Of a stretch of DNA of 64,000 bases, positions 18,637 to 40,002 are shown in pieces. The DNA comes from Eucommia ulmoides (Eukaryota; Streptophyta; Magnoliopsida; Garryales; Eucommiaceae). The notes under the pieces were generated by a model. The model saw only the letters and a program-made list of their open reading frames with translations, made no database searches and was not told the DNA's origin. The position numbers and the translations under genes were made by a program. The stretch lies in contig CM028326.1 of assembly GCA_016647705.1 (NCBI GenBank), positions 19,219,401 to 19,283,400 on the forward strand, read 5' to 3'. The first letter of the stretch is position 1. Each line of letters starts with the position of its first letter.

Positions 18637-20748
18637 ATGGTTGAGCACGATAAAGAGCATGCGAAAGATACTACTTCTGAAAAGCCACCAATTGCACGCA
18701 ACGAGCCTAGCGGCAGGAAACGGTCTTATGTTTGCAACCATTTCATTGTCGTAAACCCACTTAAGACTGACCCCAAAAAACAACTTGTAATCATTGTTCG
18801 GTCACATATTACTATCATACCAAAAGGCATGGAATGGGGTCAATTAAGTATCATTTGGAGTACAAATGCAAGGAATATCAGTCTACTATACGAGACCCAT
18901 CTCAAACCACACTAGGTTTTAAACCAAAAGATGAATCGATAGTGGAAAGTTCTATTGGGAGTTTGACAGCAATAAAATTTAGTGTTGAGGACTGTCGTAG
19001 GGCTTTGGCTGAGATGTTAATTATAGACGAGTTGCCTTTCCGTCATGTTGAGGGTGAGGAGTTTCGTAGCTTTTTGCGTGTTTTTGGTCCTAAATGGACC
19101 AAAATTCCGTCTCGTATTACAATTGCTAAAAATTGTTTTGAGATTTATTCGAGAGAGAGAAAGAAATTAAAAAATGCTCTTCAAGGTCAAAGAGTTTGTC
19201 TCACTACAGACACATGGACTTCGACCCAAAATTTAAATCACATGTGTCTCACGGCATATTTCATTGATAGTGAATGGAATATGCATAAGAGAATTCTTAA
19301 CTTTTGCATAGTGGAAAGTCACAAAGGTGAGGTACTCGGTAAAATAATTGAGATGAGTTCGCTGAATTGGGGGATAAGCAATATTCTCACAGTCACTGTT
19401 GATAATTCTAGTTCGAATAATGTTGTAATTCAATACTTGAAAAGAAAAACTAAGGATAGAGTTGGTACAATTTTAGAGCATGAGTTCTTGCACGTGAGAT
19501 GTTGTGCTCATATTTTAAATCTTATTGTCCGTGATAATTTGAAAGAAATGGATGAATCCATTGTGAAGGTAAGAAATGTTGTTCGTTATGTGAGGTCTTC
19601 TCAACAACGAATGCAAAATTTAAGCTATGCTCAGAGATAGAAAAGATTGAGTGTAAAGCGCAAGTATGTTTAAATGTGCCCACAAGGTAGAACTATACAT
19701 ACTTGATGTTAAAGAGAGTAGAAAAATTCCAAAAAATATTTAGCCAGTTGGAAGAAGAAAAAGATACAAATTTTCTTCCTAGTATCACAGAAGAAAATGA
19801 TAATGAGATAGATGAAGAGATTAGTAGGAGATCGAAGAGAACACCTTTAGGGCCTCTCGAAAGGGAGGATTGGGATAAGGTTCAGTTATTCACCAAATTT
19901 CTTAAAGTTTTCTATGATACTACCGTTCATTTGTTGGGCCCTAGACATATAACTTGCAATGATTTTTTTTCTGGATTATGTTCATATCCAAGATACAATT
20001 GAGGAAGAATGTAATAGGGGTGCACCTTACTTGAGCTTAGTGGCGCAAAACATGAAAACTAAATTCGACATGTATTGGGGAAAATTTGAGAAGATGAATT
20101 TGTTGTTCTTTGTCGGGTTGGTTCTTGATCAACGTTTCAAGTTGATTTATGTTGAATATTGTTTTGGATCATTATTTGACTATGTGAAAGCTAATGAGAT
20201 GACTAACAAGGTGAAGTCCGTTCTTTTTCGTTTATATGATTCATATTTCACGCTTCATTACGTAATGGGGGTACTTCTAACAATCCAAGGTCAAGTCAAC
20301 CATTGGAGCAAGAGGTATCTAGTAGTGGCCTAATGGATCGAAAGGAATGAGGTTTTTGGGGTATAAGCAACACTTGGAGAGGGTAGGCACACTAGAAAAC
20401 CAAAATGAGGTAGACCGGTATCTTGTGGAGAGGATGGAAGAAAATGTAGAAGGGTTTGATGTATTAGCTTGGTGGAAATTGAATACCCCTAGATATCATA
20501 TTCTTTCTATTCTTGCACGGCATGTTCTTGCAATGCTCATGTCTATCGTCGCCTTAGAATCGGTATTTAGCACAGGGGGTCGCATACTAGATCCTTTTCG
20601 GAGTTCTCTATCACCAAAAACGGCAGAGGCTTTTATTTGTGCTCAAGATTGGCTTCGTTCTTCAACGAATGAAATTAGCCTTAGGGAAGCAATGGATGAT
20701 GTTGAAGTATTCGAGAATCTTACTTCAGGCATTTTTAAATTATTTTAA
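18637..20748 (+). pseudogene. hAT transposase (BED finger to hATC dimerisation domain), broken
   Basis: A BED-type finger (TCNHCSVTYYYH...HLEYKC) is found after a frameshift near 18780. Catalytic-core blocks follow: TTDTWTSTQNLNHMCLTAYF (about 19202-19260), TVDNSSSNNVV (19393) and HVRCCAHILNLIVRDNL (19491). The C-terminal hATC dimerisation domain at 20347-20748 has DRYLVE, FDVLAWWKLNTPRYHILS, ESVFSTGGRILDPFRSSLSP and ICAQDWLRS. This is the RICESLEEPER/Ac-like type. Breaks include frameshifts near 18780, 19612, 19975 and 20300, and a stop in place of the Trp of the PTRWN block near 19687. It would have cut and joined the ends of its own family; it is dead. Confidence 0.85.
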
Positions 20749-21237
20749 TTTCTATTTATTTTTCATTTATTTTTGTTCATCTAATTATTAATAATCTTCT
20801 CAATTTATGTTGTAGGGATTGCGGATGATGGCAACATTGATGAGCCGGTGGTTGTTGAAGTTTAGAATTTGTTATTTTTGCTTTGTTTTGGTAAGTGGTA
20901 TTGTTGTTTTGGTCTTCTTAGTTTTCCAATGTTGGCCTAATTTGTTAATGGCTTGGTAGTTTTCTTGATGAGCCAGTGGTTGTTGAAGTTTAGAATTTGT
21001 TATTTTTGTTTTGGTTTAGTGATTGGTATTGTTGTTTCGGTGTTCTTAGTTTCTTGTTATTGTTGGCCTAATTTGTTATTGGTTTGGTAGTGTTCTTAAT
21101 TTGTCATCTTGTTTTTTTATTTGTAATTTTTGAAGTTATTGTTGTGTTTTAATTATAAATTTGTTGAATGAAATTAACAATTTTGTAAGTTGTTGGCCAA
21201 ATACAATGATCTTTTCTATAATAAATTGAACAGCTCG

Positions 21238-21238
<1 letters not shown>

Positions 21239-21268
<30 letters not shown>
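21239..21268 (+). repeat. Poly(A) run
   Basis: An uninterrupted A-run of about 29 bases follows AACAGCTCG in the 3' part of the hAT element. Open frames across it on both strands are low-complexity artefacts. Confidence 0.9.
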
Positions 21269-21270
<2 letters not shown>

Positions 21271-21516
21271 CCCAAAAAACAAGCCCAAAATGCCTGCACA
21301 GCCAACATGTTGGATTTAAAAAACAGTAAAGCCCATAAGCCCAAACTCGTAATCCGCCCATGGCACTGCGAAACCTGTAGGCCTGAAACCCAAAAAAATA
21401 TTCAAGGTTTCGAGGGTCGGATCGATCAGGTTACTCGACCCAAATACCCTGATCGGTCAGCCCAGAAAAACCCCAAACCCGGACCCGCCAGACTGATATT
21501 CTCCCCTAAGCTCAAA

Positions 21517-21770
21517 GCACCAAACAAAGACAAGGAAATTATCATTAAATCAATCCCAAAAAGTGCCAATACGAGAAAGGAGGAAATTAAAGTGACAAAT
21601 CAAGGAAAAGGAAAAATAGTGGATTCAAAGGACACAAAGCTTGAAATCAGTAATCCACCAAAGGTACACACACTAATTGCTCCCAAGGATGATCCAGGTA
21701 TGTTAAATTTTTTAAAGTTCAAGTATATTAATTTTGTTAGGGAGACCGATCCTTCATATTTCGAAAATTA
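21517..21770 (+). pseudogene. E1 gag-like ORF, C-terminal part
   Basis: The frame resumes with KAPNKDKE and ends NPPKVHTLIAPKDDPGM plus about 20 further residues before the stop near 21769. The matching E2 end is at 14126-14370. The NPPKVHT..APKDDPGM block is the best-kept part of the ORF in both copies, suggesting that it mattered for function. A lysine-rich stretch lies before it. Confidence 0.7.
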
Positions 21771-22310
21771 GATATTTATGATGTGGGTGTGAGTGTGTGG
21801 GTGTAAAAATATTTTTTAAATAATGTATGTGGATCAAAATAAGAGGTAAAAATTGAGCTAAGTGGATCAATTAGGGCTGAAATACACAAAAAGGCGTGCC
21901 TAGACTATACTGTCAATCAACCGACAAGGAGGCTGTCGGTCAACCGACAATTACAGGCCTGCAAAAGTTCCAGGCGCTGTAATGCTCGGTCAACCGACCC
22001 CCAAATGGTCGGTCAACCTACTGTTACGGGATTTATATCCCCTAACCCATTTATTTTAGCCCATTTCAGTTTTGAAACCCTTTATCTCCAAAAACCTTTC
22101 ATCTCCCAAGTATTTTTATCCTAAATCTTCACGAAATCGACACATTTTGGCTTGGATCTAAAGATCTAGGGCTCGGATCTATGATTTGGAAACCCATTGC
22201 TTTGAAATAAGATTGGTTCTTCTCTCTTTCCTCTAGGGTTTCGGTTTGGACTTCATATGAGTTAGATTTTTTGAGTTTTCTTGGTTGGTTGTTCATTAAA
22301 TCGTGAGAAA
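21771..22310 (+). promoter_or_regulatory. Spacer between the E1 ORFs with TCGGTCAACCGAC palindromes
   Basis: No gene is seen. GTCAATCAACCGAC, GTCGGTCAACCGAC, CTCGGTCAACCGACC and GTCGGTCAACC lie within 21910-22020, the same palindrome that is dense in the family's LTRs. Three of the four keep the W-box core. They lie about 300 bases before the ATG of the second ORF and are followed by a pyrimidine-rich leader, so an internal promoter is plausible. Confidence 0.4.
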
Positions 22311-22973
22311 AATGCCTAGAATTAAGTTACCAGCTACCCTAAGAGAAACATTTGACAAAACTCACTTTAGGAACAAGGAGGATGAACTAAAATATAAATT
22401 GGAATTCGCTAATTGAAAGGTTGTGTGTTGCAAACCCATATATTTCAATGGTCTGAAAAAGAAAAATCTTGATATTGAACATTATTACCTTGGGTTGGAC
22501 CAATTTTGTCACTTCAAATAATAAGTGGATGGCAATTTGGGTAAGGATGTTTTATAGCAACCTTAGATTTGATGATGTTTATATGACATATTTTGTTAAG
22601 GGAAAATAAATTAGGGCATTTCTGAGCGAGATTTTGAAGTTGGAAAGAGAAGATGTGTTTCCCTTCAATACCCCTCATTAGCTTTCAAGAAACTCAAGAA
22701 ACTTTAATAGAAAAGAAATTGCAGAAAAGTTTGATTTGGATGGAGACAAAGCGGGATCATTATCACTTGAGCACCGTCTCATTCATTTTGTGATCTCATA
22801 GACAATTGTTCCTAGAGGGGGAAGTCATGCAAATGTAAATGACTTTGATCTATATTTGTTGAATGAGATTGTCGAGGGAGGAAATTAGACTTAGCTTATA
22901 TTATGATTGACCACATGAAATACCATCTGTAGAAACCCTCTAGAGTATTACCCTATGCCGATACGCTTTAGGT
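22311..22973 (+). pseudogene. E1 second ORF ('putative plant transposon protein'-like), truncated
   Basis: From ATG 22311 the frame reads MPRIKLPATLRETFDKTHF and, through at least four stops and shifts, follows the E2 ORF: CKPIYFNGLKKKNLDIEHYY, VRMFYSNL, FDLDGDKAGSLSLEHRL, VPRGGSHANVNDFDLYLLNE, MIDHMKYHL and VLPYADTL. It stops at 22973 where LINE sequence starts; the corresponding E2 ORF runs on for about 220 residues. The missing end, the E1 3' LTR and the middle of the LINE were probably lost in one deletion. Confidence 0.6.
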
Positions 22974-22978
22974 AAGAT

Positions 22979-23074
22979 CAAAATATCAGGTTTATGAAAC
23001 ATAAAAATATCTTTAAATGTTGATTTGAAAACAGGGTTACCAATACCTCTACAGTTCCAAAAAATGATTTTCAT
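22979..23074 (-). pseudogene. LINE ORF2 endonuclease, first ~30 residues
   Basis: The minus strand reads MKIIFWNCRGIGNPVFKSTF and then HKPDILIL. MK...WNCRG.GNP is the start of the apurinic-type endonuclease of plant L1 elements, and the Asn in WNCRG is a catalytic-site residue. The frame is cut at the junction with E1. Confidence 0.8.
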
Positions 23075-23222
23075 GGGACTAAGATTTAAAAGGGTTAGGG
23101 TCAGATCCATGTCATGAGTTCTTAGGAGGAATTTGCACCTCCGGAGACTCAACTTCCATGCTCGTAATGGTTCCATCAACACCTCCAAGACTGGGGGTGG
23201 AAGTGGTTTCATCTCTAACACA

Positions 23223-23864
23223 CTGACTGCCAGTCAGGCATCTTTCTACAACCAAATTATTTTGAGAAGATTTTCCAAAATCTAGGATTTTTGGTTCACT
23301 ATAATCTGAAATAATAACTTGAACTGGAGGTGGAGAAGATGTCAGGGAAGAAAAGGAGCGAGATGGATCAGAAGGGAGAGGAAAATGTGAGAAAGGGGAG
23401 AGACATGGAAATTTGTTTAGGATGAAGTACCAGCAACATCCATATTTCTGTTGAAAGAAAATAGGTATGCATTAGCCGAAGCAATTTTAGGCATGAGAAT
23501 AATTCCAAAAGCAGTAGAGGCCGTTGGAGTGGTAACCAAAGAAACAACCCACATGGGGGAATCTTTTAAAGCAACAGACAAGGTGGGAACATATCCCAAA
23601 AAAGTAGGGGAAATATTCTTTCCCAGGCTGGAATTAGGTACAGCTGTATTAGGGATGGATTTAGAATTAGAATTAGAATTCCTATGTCTAGCATAATTTT
23701 TCATAGTGGGCTTTTGTTTTTGAAATGGGCCATCTTTCTTAGTATTGGGCTTGAAAATTAGATTTAAACTCAGGTTGGGATGGAGTTATAAAATTAGGAG
23801 TGGGATCACTTCTAAGGTTTTTTTCCCCTGTTTAGCGCAACCTCAACATTCCCATATTTGTGAA
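23223..23864 (-). pseudogene. LINE ORF1 C-terminal region, broken
   Basis: The minus strand contains the low-complexity basic peptide GFKPN, KKDGPFQKQKPTMKNYARHR, NSNSNSKS and further Ser/Pro/Thr-rich sequence. Upstream of the hAT copy, at about 24840-24896, it reads LVKRTRKFNSNKVNPNG and KFIHKYGNVEVAL. An SW(L/M)LV-R basic block followed by a disordered tail is usual for LINE ORF1 after the zinc knuckle. The knuckle itself is not in the window. Identification rests mainly on position directly before ORF2. Confidence 0.5.
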
Positions 23865-24827
23865 TAGGGGTGTGCACTGGTCAGGTGGGATAAAAAATGG
23901 TTGTATGCGACACCCAACCCAAACAATGTCGGGTGAAGAAATTTTGGCCCGATTTCAACCGATGGTGCGCTGGAAATCGATCATGGGCGGGTTTGTTGGA
24001 TTACGGTCGGGTACGGTCAGTGGAGTGGAAAATCAAATTTGTGAACATTAAACATTGTAGTTGCAGTAAAGAATAAGATAAATAAAGAAGAAGATGAATC
24101 AAAACAAAAGAAGAAACAAAGTATCATATGAACTTTGAGTTTAAATCATCACATGACTCCATTGATGTTAATGTGTTCAAGATAAAATCAAACAGAAATC
24201 AAAACTCTAAATAAGCAAATAAGTAAACATCAAACAAAAGATGAGAAGACACTAATAAAACTCACTGTCGATCCGTCGGTGCTAATCCGTTGCTGTCTCT
24301 CACTGTCACAGGTTTACAGCCAAAGTTGATATGGAGAATAGCCTAAGAGATTTGAACTTTTCGAGAATAGCCAAAGAGATTTGAACTTTTTGAGAATATA
24401 CGAAGAGAATTGAAATTTTCGAGAATAGCAGAAGTTGATCCGTTAATGCTAGTCGATTTGGAGAATAGCTGAAGAGATTTGAACTTTTCAAGATGTAGAG
24501 AATAAATAAATGCGAAGATTAATGAAGATTAAAGAAGCGACCTTTCATCTGGATGAAGAAGAGCTAATAAGGTTCTGGTTACGATACAAATGCAATGAAT
24601 GAGGGATGAAATAAAGCAAAACCCTAGCCTTTAAGGTGTGTACTTCAGTTGGATTGGGTACTTGGCTGGATTTAGATCAAAACCCGTCACCCGATCTGAC
24701 AACCTAAAAATCTGGAAAAAAAATCACCCAATCCGACCGTAAATGAACAGTACATCTGATTTATGCGAGTGAGGGTCAGGCAGGTCACTCGGTTGGGGTC
24801 GGTTATTGCTGGCCATGCACACCTCTA
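23865..24827. mobile_element. Non-autonomous hAT element, perfect 8-bp TSD
   Basis: The element starts TAGGGGTGTGCACTGG and ends GCCATGCACACCTCTA, giving inverted ends TAGRGGTGTGCA. It is flanked by TTTGTGAA at 23857-23864 and 24828-24835, a perfect 8-bp duplication. The subterminal regions contain repeated GGTCGG/CCGACC words, as in the larger hAT element at 17699, which may be a relative. It has no transposase. The middle contains three imperfect repeats of about 35-60 bases around GAGAATAGC...AAGAGATTTGAACTTTT (24330-24505). Confidence 0.9.
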
Positions 24828-24896
24828 TTTGTGAATGAATTTATTATACACTTTAGTAGGCCCATTAGGATTAACTTTATTGGAATTAAACTTTCT

Positions 24897-25655
24897 CGTT
24901 CGTTTAACTAGCAACCAAGACAAAGTATTCTCAAGCTACCTTCCAGATGTTCCGTACTTTGCTGACTGCATTCTTGGTCGAGAATTTCAACATTAAATGG
25001 TATTTCGATATTATAGCCCTCAACGCATTTAAGCAAGGTCTTCTGATGATGACATTGTATACTTACTGGCAGACCACTACCATGAGTCGCGCATCAAATG
25101 TCAAGTGCTTCGGCTCCGTCCCCGCTATGAGTTGGAGCATGATACAATTAAGACGATTTACTGTTTGCCTTGAAACCAACCAAATGAGTTATTATTGATT
25201 CAATTAGTCACAGTCAATCCCCATTTTATTGAATGCTACTAAGTAGAATATCTCTGCTGAGCTATCGTTGTTGACAAACACTCATCCTACGTTGTAATTT
25301 GAAATCTGTAACGTGACCACCAAAGCATCAACATGGTGTGTGTGAACCCTGTGTAGGTCTTTATCTATGAAGATGATAGCTTTTCTTTCTATGATGGCTC
25401 ATTTGGACACCTGGAACACATAATCCTTGGCCCAACATTTGCCTTTTCCAGCGTGTGCCTTGTGCTCGAACTTGGTTAATCCTCCCAAGGAAAATCTAAC
25501 ATGGATTGTATGCATGTCTCCTCGGACTTCAGGCCTCTCTCTTTCTTTATCAGGGCGTAGGTCATCCTGCTCTCTTTTGGTCGTGAACCTTTTCAAGTGG
25601 TCCCATCTTATCAATTGTTTGATCTCGTTCTTTAGATTGTAATAAGCCTTTTGAA
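24897..25655 (-). pseudogene. Tat-like Ty3/gypsy: end of gag and protease, broken
   Basis: The minus strand begins YNLKNEIKQLI at about 25645, the block after the gag zinc finger, then LKRFTTKRE and MHTI (25399-25614). The protease follows with stops: AIIFIDKDLHRVHT, DALVV, a VFVNNDSSAEIF block corresponding to the LVDNGSSADIL active site, YNVIIRRPCLN for YNLILGRP.LN, and KVRNIWKVA-stop-EYFV at the left edge. Asp, Ser and Ser of the active site remain, but the Gly is replaced. No reverse transcriptase follows; the element is truncated at the LINE junction. It is the continuation of the gag at 34058-38230. Confidence 0.75.
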
Positions 25656-26760
25656 GAGTATTATAAAGAAGTCATACCTTTCTGGTTTCTTAAGGTAAGA
25701 TTTGGGATTGGCAATAACTTAATAAACTTTGCATTCATACATCTCTAATATTTGACGCACCATAAACATACTAGGTTAAAAGAAGTATGGAAGGAATATT
25801 TAATCTTCAATACAATGTCATCTACTTCCTTTTATATTAGCCACTTATATCTCCCTACCTGTGGAAACAAATGTAAACTATTATCCACCAACAAAATTTG
25901 CATTCCTATATGATATTGATATAATTATAAAGGTAAAAATTAAAAAACAAGATGCACCAAAAACTTACTTGGTTATCAAAAATATGTCATAAACAATTAA
26001 TTAAGGGACTCCAATCCCAAAACTCAAAAAACGAAAGTAGAATAAAAACATAGAAACAACAATCCTGTGAATTCAAACAATACAGAATTGAAGGTTATTA
26101 ATAAACGTTGTAAACCATAAAATGAATGAAAATAAGCTTCCATAAAATTCACATACCCCAAGCAACCGTGCATTCTTCGTTTATGGCACTAGTTTGATTA
26201 ACTTGGCACTCGATACCTAATCCATCAAGTTCGAAACTCAAATTAAATTGCACTAATCACATGAGAAACAAAAAAAAAAAAAAAAAAATATCTATAGACT
26301 ATGTAAAGACAAACAAAATTAGAGGGGGGAAACTCACAGAGATCCTAGACATGGCTCATGCACATTGCGCAGTTATTCATAATGATATTCATTTCCAAAT
26401 ATGCAAGGACTAATTTATAATTGGCTATAAAATAAAACATAACAATGTTAAATATATGCCAAGATATAAAACTTTACTACTTAAAAGTCTTAAGAAATAA
26501 ATTTACAGAAACATAAATAACAAAATTTTACACGCAATCGTTATTAATAATAAGAAAATAATTATAACAATTTAGGAAATAATCTTAAATAGATTATAAT
26601 GTTAAGAGAGAAAGAGGGAGAGCGAATAAGTTAACTAAAAAAATACAATTACAATTTGATTAGACTCCAATGTAATCATTATCACAATCTCATAAATCAT
26701 CAAAAGTCAGTTTGTCTATCATGTGAACTTGCATAATATAAGTCTATTGAAGAATGCTAT
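25656..26760 (-). pseudogene. Array unit 1: RBX1 exons A, B and LACS exon
   Basis: Exon A (26338-26388) reads NNCAMC followed by a stop, with donor GTGAGT. Exon B (26157-26216) is the best copy of that exon: IECQVNQTSAINEEC then TVAWG, against RBX1 IECQ.NQASAT.EECTVAWG. Its acceptor is decayed to TTAG but its donor GTATGT is kept. The split Cys codon (T in exon A, GT in exon B) would be restored by splicing. Exon L (25772-25858) is degraded, with a stop. The unit ends at the gag frame. Confidence 0.8.
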
Positions 26761-29224
26761 AAGGCAGTCACCCAAGGCAATATTTTGGGATCGGAAAGAA
26801 ATCAATAAACTTTGCATTCATACCTCTCTGATTTCCAAAGCACCATAAACTTACTTGGTTAACATAAATATGGAAGGAATTTCTGACCTTCAATACAATA
26901 TTATATAATTCCTTACATGTTAGCCACTCATATCACCCTACCTGAAAAAACAAAGGTAAACAACTATTTACCGATAAACCTTGCATTCATTATAATATTG
27001 ATATAATTGTTAAGGTAAAATTAAACAACGAAAGCTAATGTTTTGTAAACTTACTTGGTTCACAAATATATGGAATAAATAATTTATCAAGGGCCGCCAA
27101 TCCTAAAAAACTCTAAAAATAAAAGTAGAATCAAAACCAAGAAACAAATATCCTGGAAAATCAAACAGTATAGAATTTAAAGTTATTAATAAACATAGTA
27201 ATCAATAAAATGAATAAAAGTAAACTTTTATAAAATACACATACTCCAAGCCAATGTACATTCCTTGTTTGTGGTATTGGCTTTGTTTGCTTAGCACTCG
27301 ATGCCTAATCCCTCAAGTTAGAAACTCAAATTAAAGTATACTAATCACATAAGAAACAACAAATAAACAATTCCATAGATTGTGTACAGATTTAAGAAAA
27401 CTACTAAATTAGAAAAAGAAAAACTCTCAGAAATGCATGATGTGGTTCTTGGAAATCGCTTAGTTATTGATGAGTGGTTTATTTACCAACAAATCAAGTA
27501 TTTTTAAATTCAAATATTTGTGTGTTTTTAAGTACTTTTGTTAGTTTAATGTGTTTTTGTATTATTTTATAGGTTTTTGAATAAATGGGTGAAAAGATGC
27601 AAATTCTATACAGGTATAGTAACTTTAAGATCAATTTTAAACACAATTAAATCCTATTTTGGAACATCTCAAAACATGGAAGTTGTATATCTATGTCTTA
27701 GCTTTCCATAGGTTTTTAAATCACCTCAATCGGAATTTGGACGAGAAAGTTACGGGAAAAAGAAGAAAGAGTGTCATCACTGCGGTGGTCAAATGTCAGT
27801 AGGCCTACTGATTTCCCACCATTGCAGCGGTGATTCCCATCGCTACAGTGGTCTAACACCAAGTTGCAAAGATATTTTGGGATATTTTTGAGATATTTTG
27901 GATCCCTCATATTAGGCCTTCTTCCCCAACACTTAGGGCACATTTTTGGGAGCTCCAAACCATATCAACCAAGAGGAGATCACAAATCCAAGAAGAAAAA
28001 TGATCTTCAACCGGTTTTAGCGTCGATTCTTCAGAAAACGGCTAGTCTCCTTTGTTTCTCTCTTTATTTCTTAGTTTGGTTGATTGTTTTGATTATGTTT
28101 AGCTTGTTTCTAGTTTAATATAGGGCTATGGCCATGTGTAACTAAACATATATTGTTTTGGGCTTGATGTAGTTCATGAAAACGTGCTTTGAATAAATTG
28201 ATATTTTGTTAACGGTTGTTTATCTTTATCCAATTGTGTTTACTGTTCTTCCACTTCCATTATATGCTTGTTATAATATATTGAGAATACGGGGTTTGAC
28301 ACTCGGGAGAGGTAACCCCACATTCGGACTAGGGTTTAAATACAACGTGACGATCTAATGACTCGGGAGAGTATTAGAAAGTATGCGATCCGTGAGGTTG
28401 GGGCGAGACTCATGTGATCAGTATCATATAGACTCTAGATGAGGACGTCGATATTGACCCGGAGTTACATATTCATTCACTTTACACTCGGGAGAGGTAG
28501 TGAGTGAGATTTCGATACCTAGATTGTCGGATAATGTGAATGCCGATAGTGTAAACTAGATTGAATCGAGCACGATTAAGTGAACAAAGTTAATCCCTAG
28601 ACAATAGTTTCTCATTAACGTCATAGTAGTACTATAGTTCAATAATTAATTTAGTTTAGCTTATAAATATTATAAAAACCCTAATTTGAGTCATCTAGAT
28701 AAAGGTAGGTTATGACAATCGCGATACTTAGCAACGATCTAATCCAATCCTTATGGATACGACAACCCTTACTCTTCCAACTATACTAAAACTTAACCCG
28801 TACACTTGCGGTGAAAGTAGTGACGTAATATTCCGCTACCAATTTTTCACAACGATATCTGCATCAAAAAATACAAGGACCAATTTATAATTGGCTACAA
28901 AAATAAAACATAACACTGGTAAATCCAGGCTAAGATATAAAATTTTCCTGGTGAAAATTTTCAAGAAGTAAAATTGCAGGAATAGAAAAAGTAAAATATG
29001 ACACGTAAGCATAATCAAGAGTAAAAAAATAACAATCACATTTTAGAAAATACTTTTAAATAAAGTAGAATGTCAAGAGAGAAAGAGGGAAAGAATAAGT
29101 AAACAAAAAAATTATAATTACAATTTAATTAGATAACATTGTAATGATTATAACAATCTTATAAATCACAAAAGTTAGTTAGTTTATCACGTGAACTTAA
29201 AATAAGTTTATTGAAGAATCTTAT
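26761..29224 (-). pseudogene. Array unit 2: exons A (split by a solo LTR), B and LACS
   Basis: Exon A is cut by the solo LTR 27468-28841 into 28847-28858 and 27430-27467. Upstream of it the acceptor TTTTTTGATGCAG is clean and is followed by ATATCGTTGTG, encoding the DIVV of RBX1. Exon B is at 27245-27304. Exon L is at 26855-26941 with a GTAAG donor. Removing the LTR gives a unit of about 1.09 kb. Confidence 0.75.
27468..28841 (+). mobile_element. Solo LTR in exon A of array unit 2
   Basis: The insertion begins TGATGAGTGGTTTATTT and ends TTCCGCTACCA, so it has TG...CA ends. The flanks GTTAT and ATTTT agree at 3 of 5 bases, a decayed duplication. The 3' part (CCTTATGGATACGACAACCC, then CTTAACCCGTACACTTGCGG) has the wording common near the ends of plant gypsy LTRs. 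Three copies of ACTCGGGAGAG lie at about 28302, 28363 and 28487. No ORF or primer-binding site is present. Comparison with other units shows that nothing else was lost. Confidence 0.65.
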
Positions 29225-30267
29225 AAGGCAGTCACCCAAGGTAAGATTTTAGGATTGGAAAGAACTCAATAAACTTTACATTCAAACCTCTATGATATCC
29301 AAAGTACTATAAACTTACTTGGTTAATAGAAGTATAGAAGAAATTTCTGACCTTCAATACAATATCATATAATTTCTTACATGTTAGCCACTAATATCTC
29401 TCTACCTGCAGAAAAAAAAGGTAAACAACTATCCACCAATAAACTTTGTATTCCTTGTGATGTTGATATAATTGTCAAGGTAAAATTAAACAACGAGAAC
29501 CAATGTTCCGAAAGCTTACCCGGTTAACAAATATATGGAATAATTAATTCATTAAGGGTTGCTAATCCTATAAAACTCTAAAAACGAAAGTAGAATGAAA
29601 AACATGAAACAACTATCATGGGAACTCGAACAATACAGAATTGAATGTTATTAAAAATAAGCTTCTATAAAATAAACATACCCTAAGCCAATGTGCATTT
29701 CTCATTTGTAGAACTGGCTTGGTTAACTAGGCACTTGACACCTAATCCATCAAGTTCGAAATTCAAATTAAAATGCACTAGTCACAAAAGAAATAACAAA
29801 TAAATAATTCTATAAACAATGTAATGATTTTCACAAAACAAAACTAGAGCGGAACTACAGAAATCCATGATGTGCTTCCTGCAATCGCGTAGTTATTCAC
29901 CACGATATCCACTTCTAAATGCATGGACTGATTTATAATTGGCAACAAAATAAAACATAACAATGTTAAATACATGCAAATATATAACACTTCACTACTG
30001 AAAAATTTTAATAAATAAAATTTCTGAAATATAAATAGTAAAATCATAATCAAGAATAAAAAAAATAATTATCGCAATTTAGGAAATACTTTTAAATAGA
30101 GTAGAATGTTAAGAGAGAAAGAAGGAGAACGAATAAATTAACCAAAAAAATACTATTACAATTTGATTAGATTAAATTGTAATGATTATCACAAATTCAT
30201 AAATCACAAAAAGTTCAGTAGTCTATCACATAAACTTCCATAACATAAGTTTATTGAAAAATGTTAT
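29225..30267 (-). pseudogene. Array unit 3: exons A, B and LACS
   Basis: Exon A (29858-29908) encodes DIVVNNYAI, with the first RING Cys changed to Tyr. Exon B is at 29682-29741. Exon L (29319-29405) keeps acceptor CTGCAG and donor GTAAG. At 1043 bases it is the shortest full unit. Confidence 0.75.
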
Positions 30268-31346
30268 AAGACAATCACTCAAGGTAAGATTTCGAAATCG
30301 AAAAAAATTCAATAAACTTTGCATTCATACCTCTCTGATATCCAATGCACCATAAACATACTTAGTTAATAAAAGTATGGAAGGAATCTTTGACCTTCAA
30401 TACAACATCATATAATTCCTTGTAGGTTAGCCACTACCTGTAGAAACAAAGGCAAACAACTATTCACCAATAAACTTTGCATTCCTTCTGATATTGATAT
30501 AATTGTTAAGGTAACATTAAACAACAAAAGCCAATGTTTCAAAAACTTACTTAGTTAACAAATATATGAAATAAATAATTAATTAAGGGCCATCAATCCT
30601 AAAAAAACTCTAAAAACAAAAGTAGAATCAAAATAAAGAAACAACTATCCTGGAAACTCAAACAGTACAGAATTGAAGTTTATGAATAAACATAGTAATT
30701 AACAAAATGAATGAAAATAAGTTTCTATAAAATACACATACCCGAAACCAACGTGGATTCCACATCTGTGACACTGGTTTTGTTAGCTTGGCACTTGATA
30801 CCTAATCCATCAAGTTCGATACTCAAATTAAAGTGCACTAATCACATAAAAAATAATAAACAAACAATTCTATAGACTATGTACATATTTTTAAAAAACA
30901 AAATTAGAGTAGAAAACTCAGTGAGATCCATAATGTGGTTCTTGCAAATCGCCCAGTTATTCGCCATGGTATCCTCTTCCAAAAATGCAAGGATGGATTT
31001 ATAATTGGTTTCAAAATAAAACATAACAATATTAAATATAAGCGAAGATATAAAACTTCACTACTGAAAAGTTTTAAGAAATAAAATTTCAGAAATATAA
31101 ATTGCAAAATACTATACATAAATCAAAATCAAGAGTAAGAAAATAATTATCACAATTTACGAAATACTCTTAAATAGAGTAGAACGTTAAAAGTGAAAGA
31201 GTGAGAACAAATAAGTTAACAAAAAAAGTACAATTACAATTTGATTAGATTACATTATAATCATTATCACAATCTCATAAATTATAAAAAGTTGGTTTGT
31301 CTATCATGTGAACTTTGCATAAAATAAGTCTATTGGAGAACGCTAT
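30268..31346 (-). pseudogene. Array unit 4: exons A, B and LACS
   Basis: Exon A (30921-30972) encodes NNWAICKNHIMDL: one RING Cys is Trp, the rest matches RBX1. Its donor is lost (CTGAGT). Exon B is at 30742-30801. Exon L (30362-30437) has lost 11 bases before its acceptor. Confidence 0.75.
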
Positions 31347-32450
31347 AAGGTAGCCACCCAAGTAAGATTTTGGGATCGGAAAGAAATCAATAAACTTTGC
31401 ATTCATACCTTTTTGATTTCCAACGCACCATAAACTTACTTGGTTAATAGAAGTATGTAAGGAATCTCTGACCTTCAATACAATATCATATAATTCCTTG
31501 TATGTGAGCCACTCATATCTCCTTACCTGCAGAAACAAAGGTAAACAACTAACTACCAATAAATTTTGCATTCCTTATGATAATTATATAATTGTCAAGG
31601 TAAAATTAAACAACGAAAGCAGATGTTCTGAAAATTTATTTGGTTAACAAATATATAGAATAAATAATTAATTAAAGACCATCAATCTTAAAATTGTCTA
31701 AAAACAAAAGTAGAATAAAAACAAGAAAATAACTATCCTGCGAACTCAAACAGTACAGAATTGAAGTTTATTAATAAAAATAGTAATGAACAAAATGAAT
31801 GAAAATAAACTTCTATAAAATAAACATACCCGAAGCCAACATGCATTTCTCATTTGTGGAACTTGCTTGGTTAGCTTGGCAATCGATACCTAATCTATCA
31901 AGTTCGATACTCAAATTAAAATGCACTAATCACCTAAGAAACAACCAAAAAACAATTCTATAAACTATGTACAGATTTTACGGGAAAAAAAAAAAATCAA
32001 AGTAAAACAATTCTATAAACTATGTATTTAACGCACAGAGATCTATGATATGGTTCCTACAAATCGCACAGTAATTTACAATGATATCCACCTTCGAAAA
32101 TGCAAGGATCGATTTATAATTAGCTACAAAATAAAATATAATAATGTTAAATACATGTGAAGCTATAAAACTTCACTGATGAAAAGTTTTAAGAAATAAA
32201 ATTTTAGAAATATAAATAGCAAAATATTATACATAAATCATAATCAAGAGTAAGAAATTTAAGAAATACTCTTAAATAGAGTAGAATGTTAAAAGAAAAA
32301 AAAAAGACCGAATATGTTAACAAAAAGTAAAAGTACAATTACAATTTGATTAGATTATATTATAATTATTATCAGAATCTCATAAATCACAAAACGTTGG
32401 TTAGTCTACCACATGAACTTGTATAAAATAAGTCCATTGAAGAACGCTAT
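31347..32450 (-). pseudogene. Array unit 5: best-kept exons A and LACS
   Basis: Exon A (32037-32088) reads DIIVNYCAICRNHIIDL, nearly the RBX1 sequence DIVVDNCAICRNHIMDL, with a GT donor. Exon B is at 31830-31889. Exon L (31440-31526) reads YEWLTYKELYDIVLKV and then RDSLHTSINQ, bounded by CTGCAG and GTAAGT. It matches the YVWLTYKEVYD.VLK.G.S...GV stretch near the N-terminus of plant long-chain acyl-CoA synthetases. Confidence 0.8.
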
Positions 32451-33523
32451 AAGGCAATCACCCAAGGTAAGATTTTGGGATCGAAAAGAACTCAATAAAG
32501 TTTGCATTCTTATCTCTCTTATATCTAACTCATCGTAAATTTAATTGGTTAACAGAAGCATGCAAGGATTCTCTAACCTTCAATATAATATCATATAATT
32601 TCTTGTATGTTAGCTAATCATATCTCCCTACCTACAGAAATAAAGGTAAACAACTATTCACCAATAAACTTTTCATTCTTTATGATATTGATATAATTGT
32701 CAAGATAAAATTAATCAATGAAAGTCGATATTCCGAAAACTTACTTGGTTAACAAATATATAAAATAAATAATTAATTAAGGGTCGTCACTCCAAAAAAA
32801 AACTTTAAAAACAAAAGTAGAATAAAAACCAAGAAACAATAATCTTGAGAACTCAAACAATACAGAATTGAAGGTTATTAACAAATATAGTAATCAACAA
32901 AATGAATGAAAATACGTTTCTATAAAATACACATACCCCAAGCTAATGTGCATTCCTCGTTTGTGGCACTAGCTTGCTTAGCTTGGCACTCGATATCAAA
33001 TTCGAAACTCAAGTTAAAGTGCACTAATCAAATAAGAAAAAACAAGCAAACAATTCTATAGGCTATGTACATATTTTTGGAAAATAAAATTACAGTGGAA
33101 AACTCATACAGATCCATGCTATGGTTCTTGCAAATCGTGCAGCTATTTACAACGATATCTGCTTCTAAAAATGCATGGATCGATTATAATTGGCTATAAA
33201 ATAAAACATAACAATGTTAAATACATGCGAAGATATAAAACTTCACTACTGAGAAGTTTTAAGAAGTAAAAAAATATAAATAGCAAAATAGTATACGTTA
33301 ATCATAATTAAGAGTAAGAAATTAATTATCACAATTTAGGAAATACTCTTAAACAGAGTAGAATGTGAAAAGAGAAAGAGAAAGAGTGAATAAGTTAACA
33401 AAAAAGTACAATTACAATTTGAATATATTACATTGTAATGATTATCATAATTTCATAAATCACAAAACGTTGGTAAGTCTATCACGTGAACTTACATAAA
33501 ATAACTCTATTAAAGAATGCTAT
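32451..33523 (-). pseudogene. Array unit 6: exons A, B and LACS
   Basis: Exon A (33109-33159) reads DIVVNSCTICKNHSMDL with both RING cysteines kept; its donor has changed to AT. Exon B (32937-32996) reads [11 protein letters not shown] at its core in consensus. Exon L (32545-32631) has lost its donor (TTTAA on the plus strand). Confidence 0.75.
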
Positions 33524-34057
33524 AAGGTAGTCATCCAATGTAAGATTTTGGGATCGGAAAGAACGCAATAAACTTTGCATTCATACCTCTCTGATATCCA
33601 ATGCACCACAGACTTACTTGGTTAACAGAAGTATGGAAGGAATCTCTGACCTTCAATACAATATCATATAATTCCTTACATATTAACCACTCATATCTCC
33701 CTACCTACAGAAACAAACATAAACAACGATCCACCAATAAATTTTGCATTCCTTGTGATATTGATAACGAAAGCCGATGTTCCAAAAACTTACTTGGTTA
33801 CCAAATTTATGGAATAATTAATTAATTAAGGGCCGCCAACCCTAAAAATTCTAAAAAAATAAAAGCAAAATCAAAACCAAGAAACAACTATCCTGGGAAC
33901 TCAAACAGTACAAAATTGAAGTTAATTAATAAATGTAGTAATCAACACATTCCTCGTTTATGGTATTGGCTTCGTTTGCTTAGCACTCGATAAGTAATCC
34001 TTCAAATTTAAAACTTAAATTAAAGTGCACTGGTCACATAAGAAACATCAAAAAAAT
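33524..34057 (-). pseudogene. Array unit 7 (partial): truncated exon B and LACS
   Basis: Only about half of a unit is present. Exon B (about 33949-33993) breaks off after the EEC codons and joins directly to downstream intron sequence, so part of the unit is deleted. Exon L (33618-33704) keeps its GTAAG donor. Exon A is absent: the array starts in the intron between A and B. Confidence 0.7.
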
Positions 34058-34547
34058 AATTGTTATCCGTGGGATGACCGTAAACCAGTTAAAAATCATA
34101 CTACTTGTTCGAGTTTGTCGCTTTTCCCCAATTCTGCAAGGGCTGGGGACACTTGACCAACTTCTTATCTCATATCTGCATCATGATTGTTCCTAATTGG
34201 GCATTGAGGGGTATGAATTTTGTGAAGCATAAGTAGATCCGTTCCTCTAGGCTTCTTATCAGCTCCACCCCTCTTTATCTCATTTTTTTCTTTTTTTAAC
34301 CGGGAGTCATCTTGACCGGGTTTGTTGTAGCTTGGCTCCTCAGACTTTCTTTCCTCGTTAAGGTCTTCTTCATCTTCATCTCAGGCCCAGTATACATCTT
34401 CTGCCACAATGAACTCGGTGAACAACGCAAAGGTACCCCCCCAAGTCTTTGCCATGTCGTATAGTAATGAACATTTCTTTACCCCTGCCATTAGAGATGA
34501 TACTTCCATTTCATCATTCAGTTCCTCTACTTGATCTAACTCATGGA
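34058..34547 (-). pseudogene. Tat-like gypsy gag, central part to zinc finger, broken
   Basis: On the minus strand the gag reads, through shifts, SLMAGVKKCSLLYDMAK, FTEFIVAEDVYWA, a Lys/Arg/Glu-rich stretch, TPLNAQLGTIMMQI, KKLVKCPQPLQNWGKATNSNK and YGHPTDN at 34058-34090. The TPLN....I......L..P...... order followed by GH.TD is standard for Tat-lineage gag. The zinc-finger remainder is on the far side of the tandem array. The right end is the solo LTR at 34553. Confidence 0.7.
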
Positions 34548-34552
34548 AAAAC

Positions 34553-37219
34553 TGTTACCCCCCACCCCGGACACCCGTCACCTATGGGGCCGGCGTGATG
34601 TCGACACGACATCCTCTTAGGGACAAACCAACTAGAAAACGACAATAGACAATTATAATTATACAATCACCAAAATCAGGCTATAAACATTTTCTCTAAC
34701 TAGGGACACACCCGTTCCTGAATTTTTAATAACAAAAAAATAAAAATAAAAAAAATAAAAACAACAATGAACCTCTCCTAGGTTCGCCTCAGGCAGGATC
34801 TCCCAAAAATACTCCCTCGCTATACCAATGCCGGACTCCACCCAGTGCCAGTAAGGGACTGACACCTAGCTATTTCACCTGCGAGTGTACTGCCTTCTTA
34901 ATAAAAATATTTTTTACATAATAATACATTTTAAATAATACATCATTTAAATATGGATCAAGCATAAGTATCTAGATGTCACATAGCGTGTAAAAGTCTT
35001 CATAATATATGTAGTGAAAATAAAGCAATATATATATAAGTTCCATTTCAAAACTATCTAGTATAAATATCATACTGATCATCACAATAAATAATAAATC
35101 ACCCAGTATAAATAAACATCACATCTCAAACCACCACTCCACCACAACACACACTGGCTAGCCATAGTGATCATTTTAACCTCACGATCGGGAGTTGCAA
35201 CGGTACCGTAACATTCGTAGAAATGCCTTCTTACGAAATATCCACACCCCTTTTGGGGAGAAATATAATTCACACCTCTTACGGGGAGAAACATAATCCA
35301 CACCCCTTACGGGGAGAAATATAATCCACTCCTATCTAACGAAAATTATTTTTAAGCCTTCTTTTAGAAACCAACACAATTCCAAAAACCTGCTTGATCC
35401 ATATCATTTATGAAATCATACAGTGTAAGTAAACACATATGTCATCATATATATATACAGAAAATAGTTTAGCAAGAAGACAGTACACTCATCTCGCTTC
35501 TTGTGCTACAATAACAGCACCGTCCAAAGCCTACCAGGATGCTGGCGTTTGCGAACCTAGTAATGATAGGGCCTAAATTAATATTTTATGCAAAATAATC
35601 AAATCGTGCAATGCAGACCCTAAGTTCCGAAATTTTCCATTTCCCACATTTTACTTATGAAAATTACTGTTTCGGGTAATTTTTATTTCATTAAAATAAT
35701 TGCATAAAATTTAGTAATACACACGGTCCCAATTTATCATTCCGATTTCGAAATTTTGATGTTAGAATTCAATTCAATAAACTGAAATAAACTTAACGGA
35801 AAACGTTACTCATTCCGAATTGTTCACGGGCCGTGAAATAGGTTGTTAATTTTTTTGGGGGTGGTTTGCGCAATTTTTTTTTTTTTTTTTTTTTTCTTTC
35901 CCTTCTTTTTTTTTTTTTTTTTTTTTTTTCCTGTTTCTGTTTTCTGTTTGTGCTCCGTCGCCGACACCATCACCGGCCGACCAGCCCCCCTGCCGGTGAT
36001 GCACCAGCTACCATAACCGTTTCCAGCAACACACCCATGCACACACATACACACACTGATCAACACACTACACACATACCTACACTGTCCTTCACTCCCG
36101 TCACCGGCCGAACTGGGTAAAACACACACACAGGCATAACACTGAACCGGAACGCCCACACACACGATTGTCAAGGGTCGACGGACGACGACCCAAACAA
36201 CACTCCAGCATACCCACCTTCTACCGTATTGAACAAAAACAGAGGACGCCACAAGCATGCACCGCCGTAGTGATGACACACACCGTCGGCCACGCCGTGG
36301 CGACGATCGCTCATGTATGCAGTCGAGGCAACACACACATACACACGCTACATGAAACAAGAATCGGAACACATACACTCCATCGAAACGCTACCGTCGG
36401 ACGAAACCGAAACCCACCGGCGATCCTATCGCCGATCACATACGCATGCATGCACACACCTACTAGAATGATTAACTAAATATGTATAAGTACTCACCAG
36501 ATCAAAGATCCTCGACAAGCTGAACAACTGAACCCAACGTTCGCTCACCGGCGATGCACCCGTCACGCCGTCGACGACCCACCCCACCGACCGAACCACT
36601 TCCGCTCTCCCCTGAAACTGACGAAAACACCTCCATGATCATGCATACGAGCAATAGACATGACCACCCTGCCGAAGGAACACCGACTCAAGGAAGTCCA
36701 ATCACTTCTTTTGTGCTCCGGTCCTCTCTCTCTCTCTCTAGAATTTTTTCTAATTTCAAACTTAATGGGGGTTGTTTGATCAATGTACACGCACAAATAT
36801 GTATATATCGCATGGATTAAGTGGTGGAAAATGCTCCTAGCCTGCCACGTTGCCTTTCTGTTCTTCTCCCTTCCGGCGGTCTCACATGCACGGCGTCTGC
36901 GTGTGTATATATATATATATGTTTAAAAAAAAATTGTTAAATTACTCTTTTCCCCCTCTAATTCCTTAAAGTATTCTTTTTTAGTTCAATTTAACATTTA
37001 TAAGTTTCTGAAATTGTAATTTGATCCCTAACATTTTCAATTTTTGATTTCTAATTAGCAATTCGCATCCCAAGTTGAGAGTAATGTTTTTAAATTTACA
37101 AATTTGACCCCCCCAAGTTTTGATTTGAGTTCTTAATCAATAAAAAATTTTACCTAAAATTTTCTAATGCTCTAAAATGCAACTATTTATGACGTACGTT
37201 TTACGATTTAGGTTTTACA
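34553..37219. mobile_element. Solo LTR, 2.67 kb, perfect AAAAC target duplication
   Basis: It begins TGTTACCCCCCACCCCGG and ends TTTAGGTTTTACA, flanked by AAAAC at 34548-34552 and 37220-37224. The gag reading frame of the host gypsy element continues across it. Inside are A/T-rich sequence, two long T-runs (about 35874-35895 and 35906-35929), a GC-richer stretch with many CACA words (36000-36460) and (TA)n near 36905-36920. ORFs there on both strands are low-complexity and not supported as genes. Orientation cannot be fixed without an internal region. Confidence 0.85.
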
Positions 37220-37224
37220 AAAAC

Positions 37225-38230
37225 CTTGAGGAAAGCTTCCAAACTCTTGCCTTACTTTTACCTTGTTAACATAAGATGTTACGCGTTTTTAACCCGTCGC
37301 TTATTGCTTTACGAACCTGTATGTAAAGGTAATGTTAAAATATTTTCAAATGAATAAAAAATACTCGACTTCAATGCCTTATACCATTTCCTGGTCATCT
37401 GGCCAAGGTCACTTGAAATGCTTGGCACTTTGTCGTGTTTGACGCTCTGCGTAGATCCATGTGAGCATGGTAAGTGTCGAGGTGCTTTACCTACTCGGAG
37501 TAACCTTGATACATCTCGATCGACGGTGGGAGTTTGAAGTTTGCTGAAAGTTTCTTGCGTAATACCCAAGCAGTAAATGACGAAATATTTCTCTTCATGA
37601 TCTCGTAGATGTTGGGCTCATTCTTTCCAATTTGCCCATGTTTCTAGTGAATGGTGTTAACATGCTCCCATAGGTCTTGATCGACTTGTCAGTAAGGGTT
37701 GAATTCTTAGCCAAAATATCGAGGAAGCTTTCATAGAGAGTGAAGGAACATTCCAAGACACGTCAAGAGTATTGCCTACTGCTCGAGTAAGGTGTGTTTC
37801 GTTTCTCAGAGCGGGCGCTTTGTTGCTTCCATCTTTCATTTGTGTCAATAACGCATGCCAAACGTAAGTGCACAATAGGTGTTCTTTCTAACAATAGGAC
37901 ATCGGGATCGCTTCAGTTATTCTGAATTCCTCGACAAAATTTATGTATTTCTCTCTGTATTATCTCCAATACTTAATAAAGATTATGTTGATCTCGATGA
38001 TACTCATATTCTTAGCATTGTTCTCACTGTATTCTTTGCCTTTCGCCGACGATCACTGGTGCTTTACTATGTGGGACCACATACCTTTGCAGAACAGGTG
38101 GTGGTGGGGGCAACTAGTTTCAACCAGACTGTCTAACCAGACATTGAACATTCTGAGATAGATCACGAATCTCCCTCATCAGCTCTATGAGGAGTGCAGG
38201 CCATTCCCTAGAGAGGCCAACCTCACGGTC
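37225..38230 (-). pseudogene. Tat-like gypsy gag, N-terminal part, broken
   Basis: The minus strand reads LPPSIEMYQGYSE-stop-VKHL, DTYHAHMDLRRASNTTKC, QAFQVTLAR and ARVWKLSSRF. This matches the gag pattern P.I..Y.G..DP..HL..Y...M.L.GAS....CRAF..TL.G.A..W. Upstream, LIREIRDLSQNVQCLV at about 38130-38190 is probably the N-terminal helix region. Stops and frameshifts are frequent. The gag would have formed the virus-like particle. Confidence 0.65.
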
Positions 38231-38337
38231 ATACATATAAAAATGGTTATCTCTTGCTCTCCTGATCGTTCATTATTATCCCAGACCTCAAAGTAACCAT
38301 AAATGTTGTTAATAGTGATTTGAAAGGCAATTAGTTT

Positions 38338-38357
38338 TTCCCATAGATGGCACCAAT
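38338..38357 (-). other. Primer-binding region of the Tat-like element
   Basis: The minus strand reads ATTGGTGCCATCTATGGGAA, corresponding to the TTTGGCGCCGTCTGTGGGAA sequence found directly after the 5' LTR of many plant Tat-lineage elements. It places the 5' LTR to the right and gag to the left, in agreement with the gag frames. Confidence 0.65.
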
Positions 38358-39020
38358 AAGATAAAGCCTAAAATTGGTTTGTCATATACGATACTTTGGG
38401 ATTAGGAATAATGAGTTTCTTTCAGCTCATATTACTCTCCCAACTCAAGTTCTTGCAAAGTAATGCACCGTGGGAGGGTCTGCCAGCGTTGCACCTCTAG
38501 TATGAGAATTAGTAGACTATTTTGAGAAAATTTTGACAGAGTATGGACTAAGAAAATGTGTACATACCTGGATAGATGGTATTTGTAGACGAGGAAAGGC
38601 TTGTTTGACAAGTCTTCCCCACATCTTGACCTATCACTATTAATGTGGCAACAATAACATGATTAGGAATTAAGGAGCCATTACTTAGAGAATGATAACA
38701 TATCTTTCCACATTAGGCGAAATACATTACAACTATTCTTGAGCCAGAATTGCAGCGGCACCATGTCTTAGGATCATAACTCTAATTGGAGAAAAATACT
38801 GAGGCTGGAGAAACCGCATTCTCTAGTCGGGTTAATGTTGAAGTCATCTTATTTGGGGTGTAGCGTTACTTGGGATGGCGCCCATCCTAGTAGGTATGTT
38901 AGCTGACTTAGGACGTTCCGTAACTCTTCATGCCTGTCGCATGTCTGTGGACAAGTGGCAATGATCTAAATCCTACTTGGATTTCCTCGTATCAAAGTTT
39001 ATAATTATACCTTGGTGATA
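38358..39020 (-). repeat. Probable 5' LTR of the Tat-like element, outer end unclear
   Basis: This non-coding stretch lies immediately outside the primer-binding region. No second copy is in the window (the 3' end of the element is deleted), so its right boundary cannot be fixed by comparison. It has no ORF and no other recognisable feature. Confidence 0.4.
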
Positions 39021-39217
39021 GGTCCTTGTTCATTTTTGTAATATATATAAAAACAAAATGATAAATTATATGAGTTAATAATTCTCAATTTTCTCATTTT
39101 TCTTTACTAATTAAAAATTAAAAATAAATATTAAATAATCTTCTTTCTTTTTAAATCCCTTCCACCAAACAACATTAAAAAAATATATGATTTTAATAAA
39201 ATAAAATAATATGATTT

Positions 39218-39600
39218 TGGGCAAATTACAGTTTTGGTCCTCATATTTGCACACTTTTTTTCATTTGGCCCTCTAATTATTTTTTTTGTCAAAGTGGTCC
39301 TCGTATTTGCAGTTGTTTTTTTAAGTGGCCTTTTCATAAAAAAATAGGCGTTAAATTGTGACGGATTTAAGGTATGTGACTTGCAAATGAAAATTTTAGG
39401 GGTAGAAAAATAATTTTTTTGGGTAAATTACAATTTTGGTCCTAGTATTTGCACCCGTTTTTTCATTTGGCTCTCCAATTTTATTTTATTTTGTCAAAGT
39501 GGTCCTCGTATTTGCAACCCTTTTTTTAAGTGGCCCTTCCATAAAAAATAGGCGTTAATTATAACAAATTTGTGGAATATGACTTGTATATGCAACCGAA
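39218..39600 (+). repeat. Tandem pair of ~200-bp repeats
   Basis: Two adjacent copies start GGGCAAATTACAGTTTTGGT (39219) and GGGTAAATTACAATTTTGGT (39421). Both continue with CATTTGGC.CTC.AAT, TTTGTCAAAGTGGTCCTCGT and AAAAATAGGCGTTAA. The GGGTAAATTACA..TTGGTCC wording is common in dispersed small plant repeats. Nothing coding is seen. Confidence 0.8.
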
Positions 39601-39870
39601 CCCTTACATGGATTGCCTACATATCTCGAATTAGAATTAGGTCATCAAGTGGTTCGTTTTGGTTAGGGTAGAAGATATGGTCTATTATTAGAGATATGAC
39701 CGAACCCTTATGGGTTGCCTATGTACTTTGGGTGGTTACCAAAGATCAGGTCGAATGTAGTTCATTTTTGTTAAGTTGAAAATTGGGTTCATTATTAAAG
39801 GTGTGACCAAACCCTTATGGGTTGCCTATGTACTTCAGGTGGTTACCAAAAATCAAGTCGGGCGTAGTTC
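39594..39870 (+). repeat. Three copies of a ~105-bp repeat (ACCGAACCCTTATGGGTTGCC)
   Basis: Copies start near 39595, 39698 and 39806. Each holds AACCCTTA.(T/G)G(A/G)TTGCCTA followed by a GTGGTTACCAAA-type block. The array is imperfect. It lies at the left side of a stretch (39600-42255) that has no coding sequence. Confidence 0.7.
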
Positions 39871-40002
39871 AGTCCAGTTATGTTTGAAAAGGCTAGGTTA
39901 TTTTTCGTTAAAAATTTGGTTTGTTTTAGTTAATGAATGGTTTGTTTTAGTTAATTTCAGTTGATTATTAGTTAGTTTTGGTTGATTATCAGTTAGTCTT
40001 GG

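Follow-up and report, generated by a model that had tools for sequence, protein, structure and literature searches.

How do pieces of two host genes come to be repeated head to tail, and by what route did such a block reach its present place? The question is raised by a tandem array of RBX1 and acyl-CoA synthetase (LACS) exon remnants in a window, here meaning the whole 64,000-nucleotide stretch of DNA that was analysed, which is C2:19219401-19283400 of the 946.7-Mb Eucommia ulmoides assembly GCA_016647705.1. The patterns detected are probably to be explained by a chimera captured by a Helitron, made tandem without the ends of that element, dispersed as blocks, expanded locally and now persisting as a dead, non-coding repeat family. 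Parent genes, single copies with Helitron-type ends and arrays on six contigs are all present in one assembly, so that the steps that lead from captured genes to satellite-like repeats can be traced in order.

Composition and parentage of the tandem unit

The array occupies 25650..34063 on the minus strand, as judged from repeat spacing and with its ends set by gag-like flanks, and comprises about 6.5 copies of a ~1.08-kb unit placed head to tail at a spacing of 1043-1105 bp. A head-to-tail array of units of this length had been claimed in a preliminary description of the sequence and is real, with its extent now refined. Alignment of the units and construction of a consensus, as that description had proposed, gave pairwise identities of 76.0-85.3%, and of 85.2-91.1% between units and their own consensus, far above chance. 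The 8.4-kb array contains an insert of 1.37 kb, and net unit DNA is ~7.0 kb. In gene orientation, which is the minus strand, a full unit contains RBX1 exons 2 and 3 (exons A and B) with the intron between them, plus one LACS exon (exon L). Exon A (DIIVNNCAICKNHIMDLC) and exon B from the minus-strand consensus match RBX1 in PDB (best E 7.9e-20) and the Pfam family zf-rbx1 (32.2 bits, cut-off 31), bearing out the presence of two consecutive RBX1 exons per unit, and since exon A ends in T| and exon B starts with |GT their joining restores the split RING Cys codon, as had been predicted. Searches with a 24-mer from the LACS exon gave no match in PDB at E<=10 and no Pfam family, yet the LACS piece matches host LACS genes.

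Both parents were located on C16. The RBX1 gene lies at C16:6273384-6276952, where four exon pieces cover residues 1-106 of the query (117 residues). Its alignment with the unit, at 82.6%, starts shortly before exon 2, runs past the end of exon 3 and extends ~170 bp into intron 3. For the C16 LACS gene (52.09 Mb) the alignment takes in the end of intron 2, exon 3 (AGRYVWLSYKEVYDIVMKVGASFHSCGVKQ) and part of intron 3, reaching about unit position 955 by eye, which agrees with the LACS exon first recognized in the unit. An RBX1 gene on C6 is a weaker candidate (70%, unit 186-424), and a C6 LACS gene with an alignment score of 71, a value reached by 0 of 500 shuffles (best shuffle 41), was dropped in favour of the C16 gene, which scores 131 over the same part of the unit. 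Because RBX1 intron 2 and the start of intron 3 sit in the unit together with the end of LACS intron 2 and the start of LACS intron 3, both pieces were captured as genomic DNA and not from mRNA, and both in sense orientation. This is what the preliminary description had argued; the intron between exons A and B, on which it had let its case hang, matches that of host RBX1, and its two-gene chimera serially amplified head to tail is supported. Its splice donor was misplaced: the LACS exon runs on past the residues LK (VRDSFHTSVNQ in the unit, VGASFHSCGVKQ in the gene) up to the true donor GTAAGT, and the GTCAGAG earlier taken for the donor lies inside the exon. A short second copy of the LACS exon end and intron precedes the LACS exon at unit ~597-690, and a third sequence occupies unit ~955-1086 and 1-170 (limits by eye). 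Single copies of this third sequence (within ~890-1086 and 1-66) are found on C9, C17 and C16 (L025, L026 and L027). A separate captured gene "Y" between the RBX1 and LACS pieces, suggested by L044 and L045, was dropped, as the C16 LACS intron explains the common part.

All units of the window array lie on the minus strand. Unit U1 (25650..26738) corresponds mostly to tree row C2w_13427, the sole row of the window array belonging to type I of the trees considered below; the remaining units are of type II, namely U2 (26739..29202), U3 (29203..30245), U4 (30246..31323), U5 (31324..32428), U6 (32429..33501) and the partial U7 (33502..34063), where tree rows are offset by ~165 bp from unit limits and a unit is given the type of the row covering most of it. 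Remnants of RBX1 exon 2 (A), all on the minus strand like those of the other exons, are at 26338..26388 in U1, at 29859-29908, 30922-30972, 32037-32087 and 33108-33158, and, split in U2 as read by eye, at 27429-27467 and about 28842-28859. Those of RBX1 exon 3 (B) are at 26157..26216 in U1 and at 27245-27304, 29682-29741, 30742-30801, 31830-31889, 32937-32995 and, in part, 33943-33993. The LACS exon 3 remnant of U1, with six donor bases, is at 25766..25858, and further copies are at 26849-26941, 29313-29405, 30356-30437, 31434-31526, 32539-32631 and 33612-33704. The insert that interrupts exon A of U2 (about 27468..28841) has TG...CA ends by eye and is probably a solo long terminal repeat (LTR); the 5-mers flanking it, GTTAT and ATTTT, are identical at three of five positions, and arrays on C10, C12 and C13 contain relatives of the insert or have them close by.

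Relatives across the genome and the insertion in the window

With one unit as query, at least 70 matches were obtained on 11 contigs, the window array included (24 candidates scored). Arrays with two or more neighbouring units are present on six large contigs, C2, C5, C7, C10, C12 and C13, so the earlier view of one local array has to be given up. Head-to-tail units at several loci are a pattern of satellite-like families; satellite-like homogenisation and long arrays were not seen, within-array identity being 82.4% (127 pairs) vs 81.4% between arrays (593 pairs) in 41 of 57 unit rows, with few units per array and a Jukes-Cantor distance between units of ~0.2.

Three relatives are single copies. 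L021 (C12:31.82 Mb, unit 169-828) holds the chimera whole at 75% to the consensus, L022 (C11:30.41 Mb, unit 204-740) holds the RBX1 piece and only the start of the LACS exon at 81%, and L024 (C15:21.82 Mb, unit 169-246 and 415-791) is without exon B at 76-77%. Their 3' ends were aligned with those of loci at C6:14.1 Mb, C17:34.7 Mb and C8:2.5 Mb, which carry part of the same element, and all six stop at one point, each being followed by T. The end consists of a hairpin of the type CCCGTGCC-TTCA-GGCACGGG and then TATAC, the hairpin being intact or nearly so at five of the six loci and decayed in L021, and CTRR is kept at four of the six (CTAG at the C6 and C17 loci, CTAA at the C8 locus and L024), with TTAG in L021 and L022. 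A hairpin, CTRR and a T target together make up a Helitron-type 3' terminus, and this combination was found for L021, L022 and L024, allowing for TTAG in the first two. At the other side the starts of L021 and L022 coincide near GATGAACATC and do not fall at TC, and L024 differs there. Positions 3212-3456 of L021, just before the RBX1 piece, are a sharp-ended 245-bp repeat with many genome copies at 87-89%.

Phylogenetic analysis with the RBX1 gene as outgroup used 37 of the 57 unit rows, and a 34-row tree was also built. The single copies L021, L022 and L024 form a clade with support 100, and all array units split from the single copies and the RBX1 gene with support 94 in the 37-row tree, dividing into type I (support 90) and type II (support 79). 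Both types are found on five of the six array contigs, C5 having only type II among the rows used. Units C10 3740/4565/6981 pair in matching order with C12 11135/12240/14664, the supports as listed being 100 (in the 34-row tree only, the pair being absent from the 37-row tree), 96-98, and 97 as a trio with C10a; C13 17760/18548 likewise pair in matching order with C7 7009/7704 (supports 97 and 100). This agreement in order means that multi-unit blocks were copied, at the least, between C10 and C12 and between C13 and C7. The same 1.32-kb insert, resembling a Mutator-like element (MULE), is present at unit 655-663 on C12, in two units, and on C10; inserts at unit 738-742 on C12 and C13 are alike in part only and were not used as evidence. 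The 1.32-kb element, seen inside or beside units at L011/L012 (C12) and L018/L019 (C10), has inverted ends of ~250 bp and an apparent duplication of 7-9 bp. In the window array a single row is of type I, against six of type II. These six cluster in both trees (support 89 with 34 rows, 72 with 37 rows), for which local expansion is the simplest reading.

The place of insertion is clear in the window. The left flank (25400..25649, minus strand) and the right flank (34064..34287, minus strand) are two halves of the same Ty3/gypsy gag-like sequence, as judged by eye and from joined-flank matches; Pfam reached no retrotransposon family for these flanks, so that the gag label rests on frames read by eye and on genome repeats. 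When the flanks were joined without the array, 38 of the 39 other matches listed, among the best 40 of 116 candidates scored, crossed the join with a length within 5 bases of the query. The window array is a clean insertion into the gag-like repeat, without target duplication or visible loss. The motif AATAAG.CT beside the left junction also resembles the unit by eye, which suggests short homology there. A Pack-MULE boundary was considered and rejected, since no inverted repeat of at least 60 nt joins the array ends (shorter ones were judged by eye), there is no 8-9 bp duplication, and target length is preserved in those same matches.

Elsewhere in the window, Ty3/gypsy remains with RVT_1, RNase H and integrase zinc-binding domains are present at 50018-51354 and 57470-60644, their Ty3 capsid and gag matches falling below the curated cut-off. 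An open frame of 289 amino acids at 18771-19640, for which Pfam gave no family at E<=0.001, resembles a hAT-type transposase. Minisatellites with periods of 28 and 29 bp lie at 35240-35329 and 24334-24434, and Rfam gave 0 matches at the gathering threshold.

The proposed history and its rivals

The history we favour would begin with a Helitron lineage of Eucommia ulmoides that captured RBX1 from exon 2 through intron 2 and exon 3 to the start of intron 3, and that also captured LACS exon 3 with parts of both its introns, in sense orientation; a Helitron is taken as captor because the single-copy relatives have Helitron-type ends. An internal segment of the chimera, lacking the Helitron 3' end and joined to the third sequence, became the tandem now seen, probably through a circle that had lost its terminator or through unequal crossing-over. 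Blocks of at least two units, which were copied between C10 and C12 and between C13 and C7, would have been copied to the window too, because both unit types occur there. The window block entered the Ty3-type gag-like repeat, most likely during break repair, and because the window type II units group together, unequal crossing-over may then have expanded them before the whole array decayed. A broader proposal, that a tandem family from a captured chimera moves between chromosomes in multi-unit blocks lacking transposon ends, such as DNA circles inserted at breaks, is more doubtful and is put forward tentatively.

Several observations weigh against this history, and some of them speak for other explanations. 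On the Helitron side, no 5' end was located in L021 or L022, and no 3' end was found in the window or the array units by an nhmmer profile of five ends at E up to 10. A Helitron 3' end is present in just two of the array stretches, L019 and L014, and there it does not lie downstream of the array in gene orientation. The window junctions show by eye no A|T Helitron target with TC and CTRR ends. Absence of the 3' end also bears on the idea that each unit is a complete Helitron, with insertion head to tail, which would accord with the Helitron-type 3' terminus of single copies having the same chimera and with tandem Helitron arrays described in plants (PMC12628747, as far as the relevant part of that review goes). 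Within the unit, however, neither a hairpin nor CTRR is seen by eye where the LACS intron gives way to the third sequence; head-to-tail Helitrons are mostly refuted by the profile search, were rejected for the window array on that ground, and are improbable overall.

On the side of dispersal, the 3' array flank is common to C12 and C10 for ~530 bp and the 5' array flank to C13 and C7 for ~240 bp, and because flanking DNA is shared next to the arrays the spread within these two pairs may reflect segmental duplication alone. Two well-supported unit pairs (98-100) link C13 with C5, and as the order of the pairs differs on the two contigs there was no simple block copy between them. An empty-site test for the C5 array had none of the 38 other matches listed spanning the joined flanks (40 of 1993 candidates scored), which is because the C5 left flank is a separate abundant repeat; a clean empty site is thus seen for the window only. 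An alternative explanation could be an array that arose once and was spread by polyploidy or large segmental duplication, with no movement of blocks, and the same contig pairs, C12/C10 and C13/C7, are those with shared flanks and with units matching in order. This would not account for the window array being a clean insertion inside a repeat copy, nor for window 20001-25650 and 34064-40000 having no match in the other array stretches compared beyond A/T runs. A SPARK-domain frame at 61687-62364 has relatives at two places only (C13:0.52 Mb and C3:12.5 Mb), both far from the other arrays, which also speaks against it, one gene being a weak test. Such duplication is judged unlikely as the general explanation.

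The last point against a history ending in dead repeats is that nonsynonymous change lies below the equal-rate expectation in exon parts (A 0.668 vs 0.827, B 0.724 vs 0.814, L 0.722 vs 0.791), with transition bias uncorrected. The deficit is mild and mutation bias is taken as its candidate cause. It could instead be read as selection on a coding RBX1-LACS fusion, for which all three exons are in sense and splice-site remnants survive. Against such a fusion, joining B to L meets TGA, as the preliminary description had rightly seen in expecting no sensible fusion protein, and 28 stop codons and 12 rows with frameshifts were counted in the exon parts (of 48 rows, 34 were used for A, 24 for B and 31 for L). 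For most window units their broken frames refute it. A protein role for these decayed exons is unlikely, and a selected fusion has next to no probability.

The preliminary description had also raised the idea of small RNAs against both genes. Exact RBX1-exon 21-mers do occur in other arrays (C12 8/91, C13 5 and C10 5), as do LACS-exon 21-mers on C13 (3/70), the window array and the RBX1 gene, introns included, share four identical stretches of 21 nt or longer (up to 26 nt, over the exon 3 donor), and captured genes in maize elements are reported as reservoirs of small interfering RNA in part of a review (PMC13317346). The window array itself, however, holds none of the 91 21-mers of RBX1 exons 2-3 and none of the 70 of LACS exon 3, its longest exact exon runs being 18 (RBX1) and 14 (LACS), and it has no exact match of at least 18 nt to the LACS gene stretch. 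Exon parts also change as fast as the rest of the unit or faster (A 0.158, B 0.155 and L 0.110 per site vs 0.109-0.123 for other unit parts). A functional locus whose small RNAs would dampen RBX1 or LACS is thus quite improbable on these sequence comparisons, and as a regulator of either gene the array has little support.

Comparison with known systems

Helitron captures in maize contain introns and are in sense orientation. Pieces of several host genes in one maize element are described in part of a 2026 review of plant gene capture (PMC13317346), and the Eucommia unit is alike in its intron-containing sense pieces of more than one host gene, whereas the captured pieces in maize are dispersed and here form the unit of a tandem family; the word satellite is absent from the main text of that review. 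For tandem arrays of truncated Helitrons in plants, an origin from a circle with a lost terminator has been proposed (Xiong, Dooner and Du 2016, as given in part of a 2025 review, PMC12628747). Those arrays resemble the present ones in having several tandem copies without a 3' terminator that later integrated elsewhere, but many keep repeated 5' ends and one 3' end, whereas here no Helitron end was found in the units, which are mainly pieces of two host genes. Dispersed satellite-like repeats borne by Helentrons in oyster (PMC7492417, in the part considered) fit the same picture, as do Helitron circles (PMC4778049, likewise in part). The oyster repeats are also short tandem arrays found genome-wide and tied to rolling-circle elements; they keep one orientation to conserved element flanks, in contrast to the differing flanks of most arrays here, where no element ends were found in the units. 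The preliminary description had called a tandem two-gene chimera no standard form, and in literature titles and abstract openings no tandem family composed of a captured chimera of two genes came up, which is no proof of absence, but the novelty is narrowed by the tandem Helitron pieces already described (PMC12628747).

Whether tandem blocks can spread without element ends can be tested on these arrays, and if such movement is true they would represent a satellite born from captured genes and outliving the element that made it. Filler DNA or patches are inserted at repaired double-strand breaks in plants, and the window array is similar to these in being a kilobase insertion without target duplication and with apparent short homology at a junction, but here several tandem units make up the patch, and relatives of it are spread over several chromosomes.

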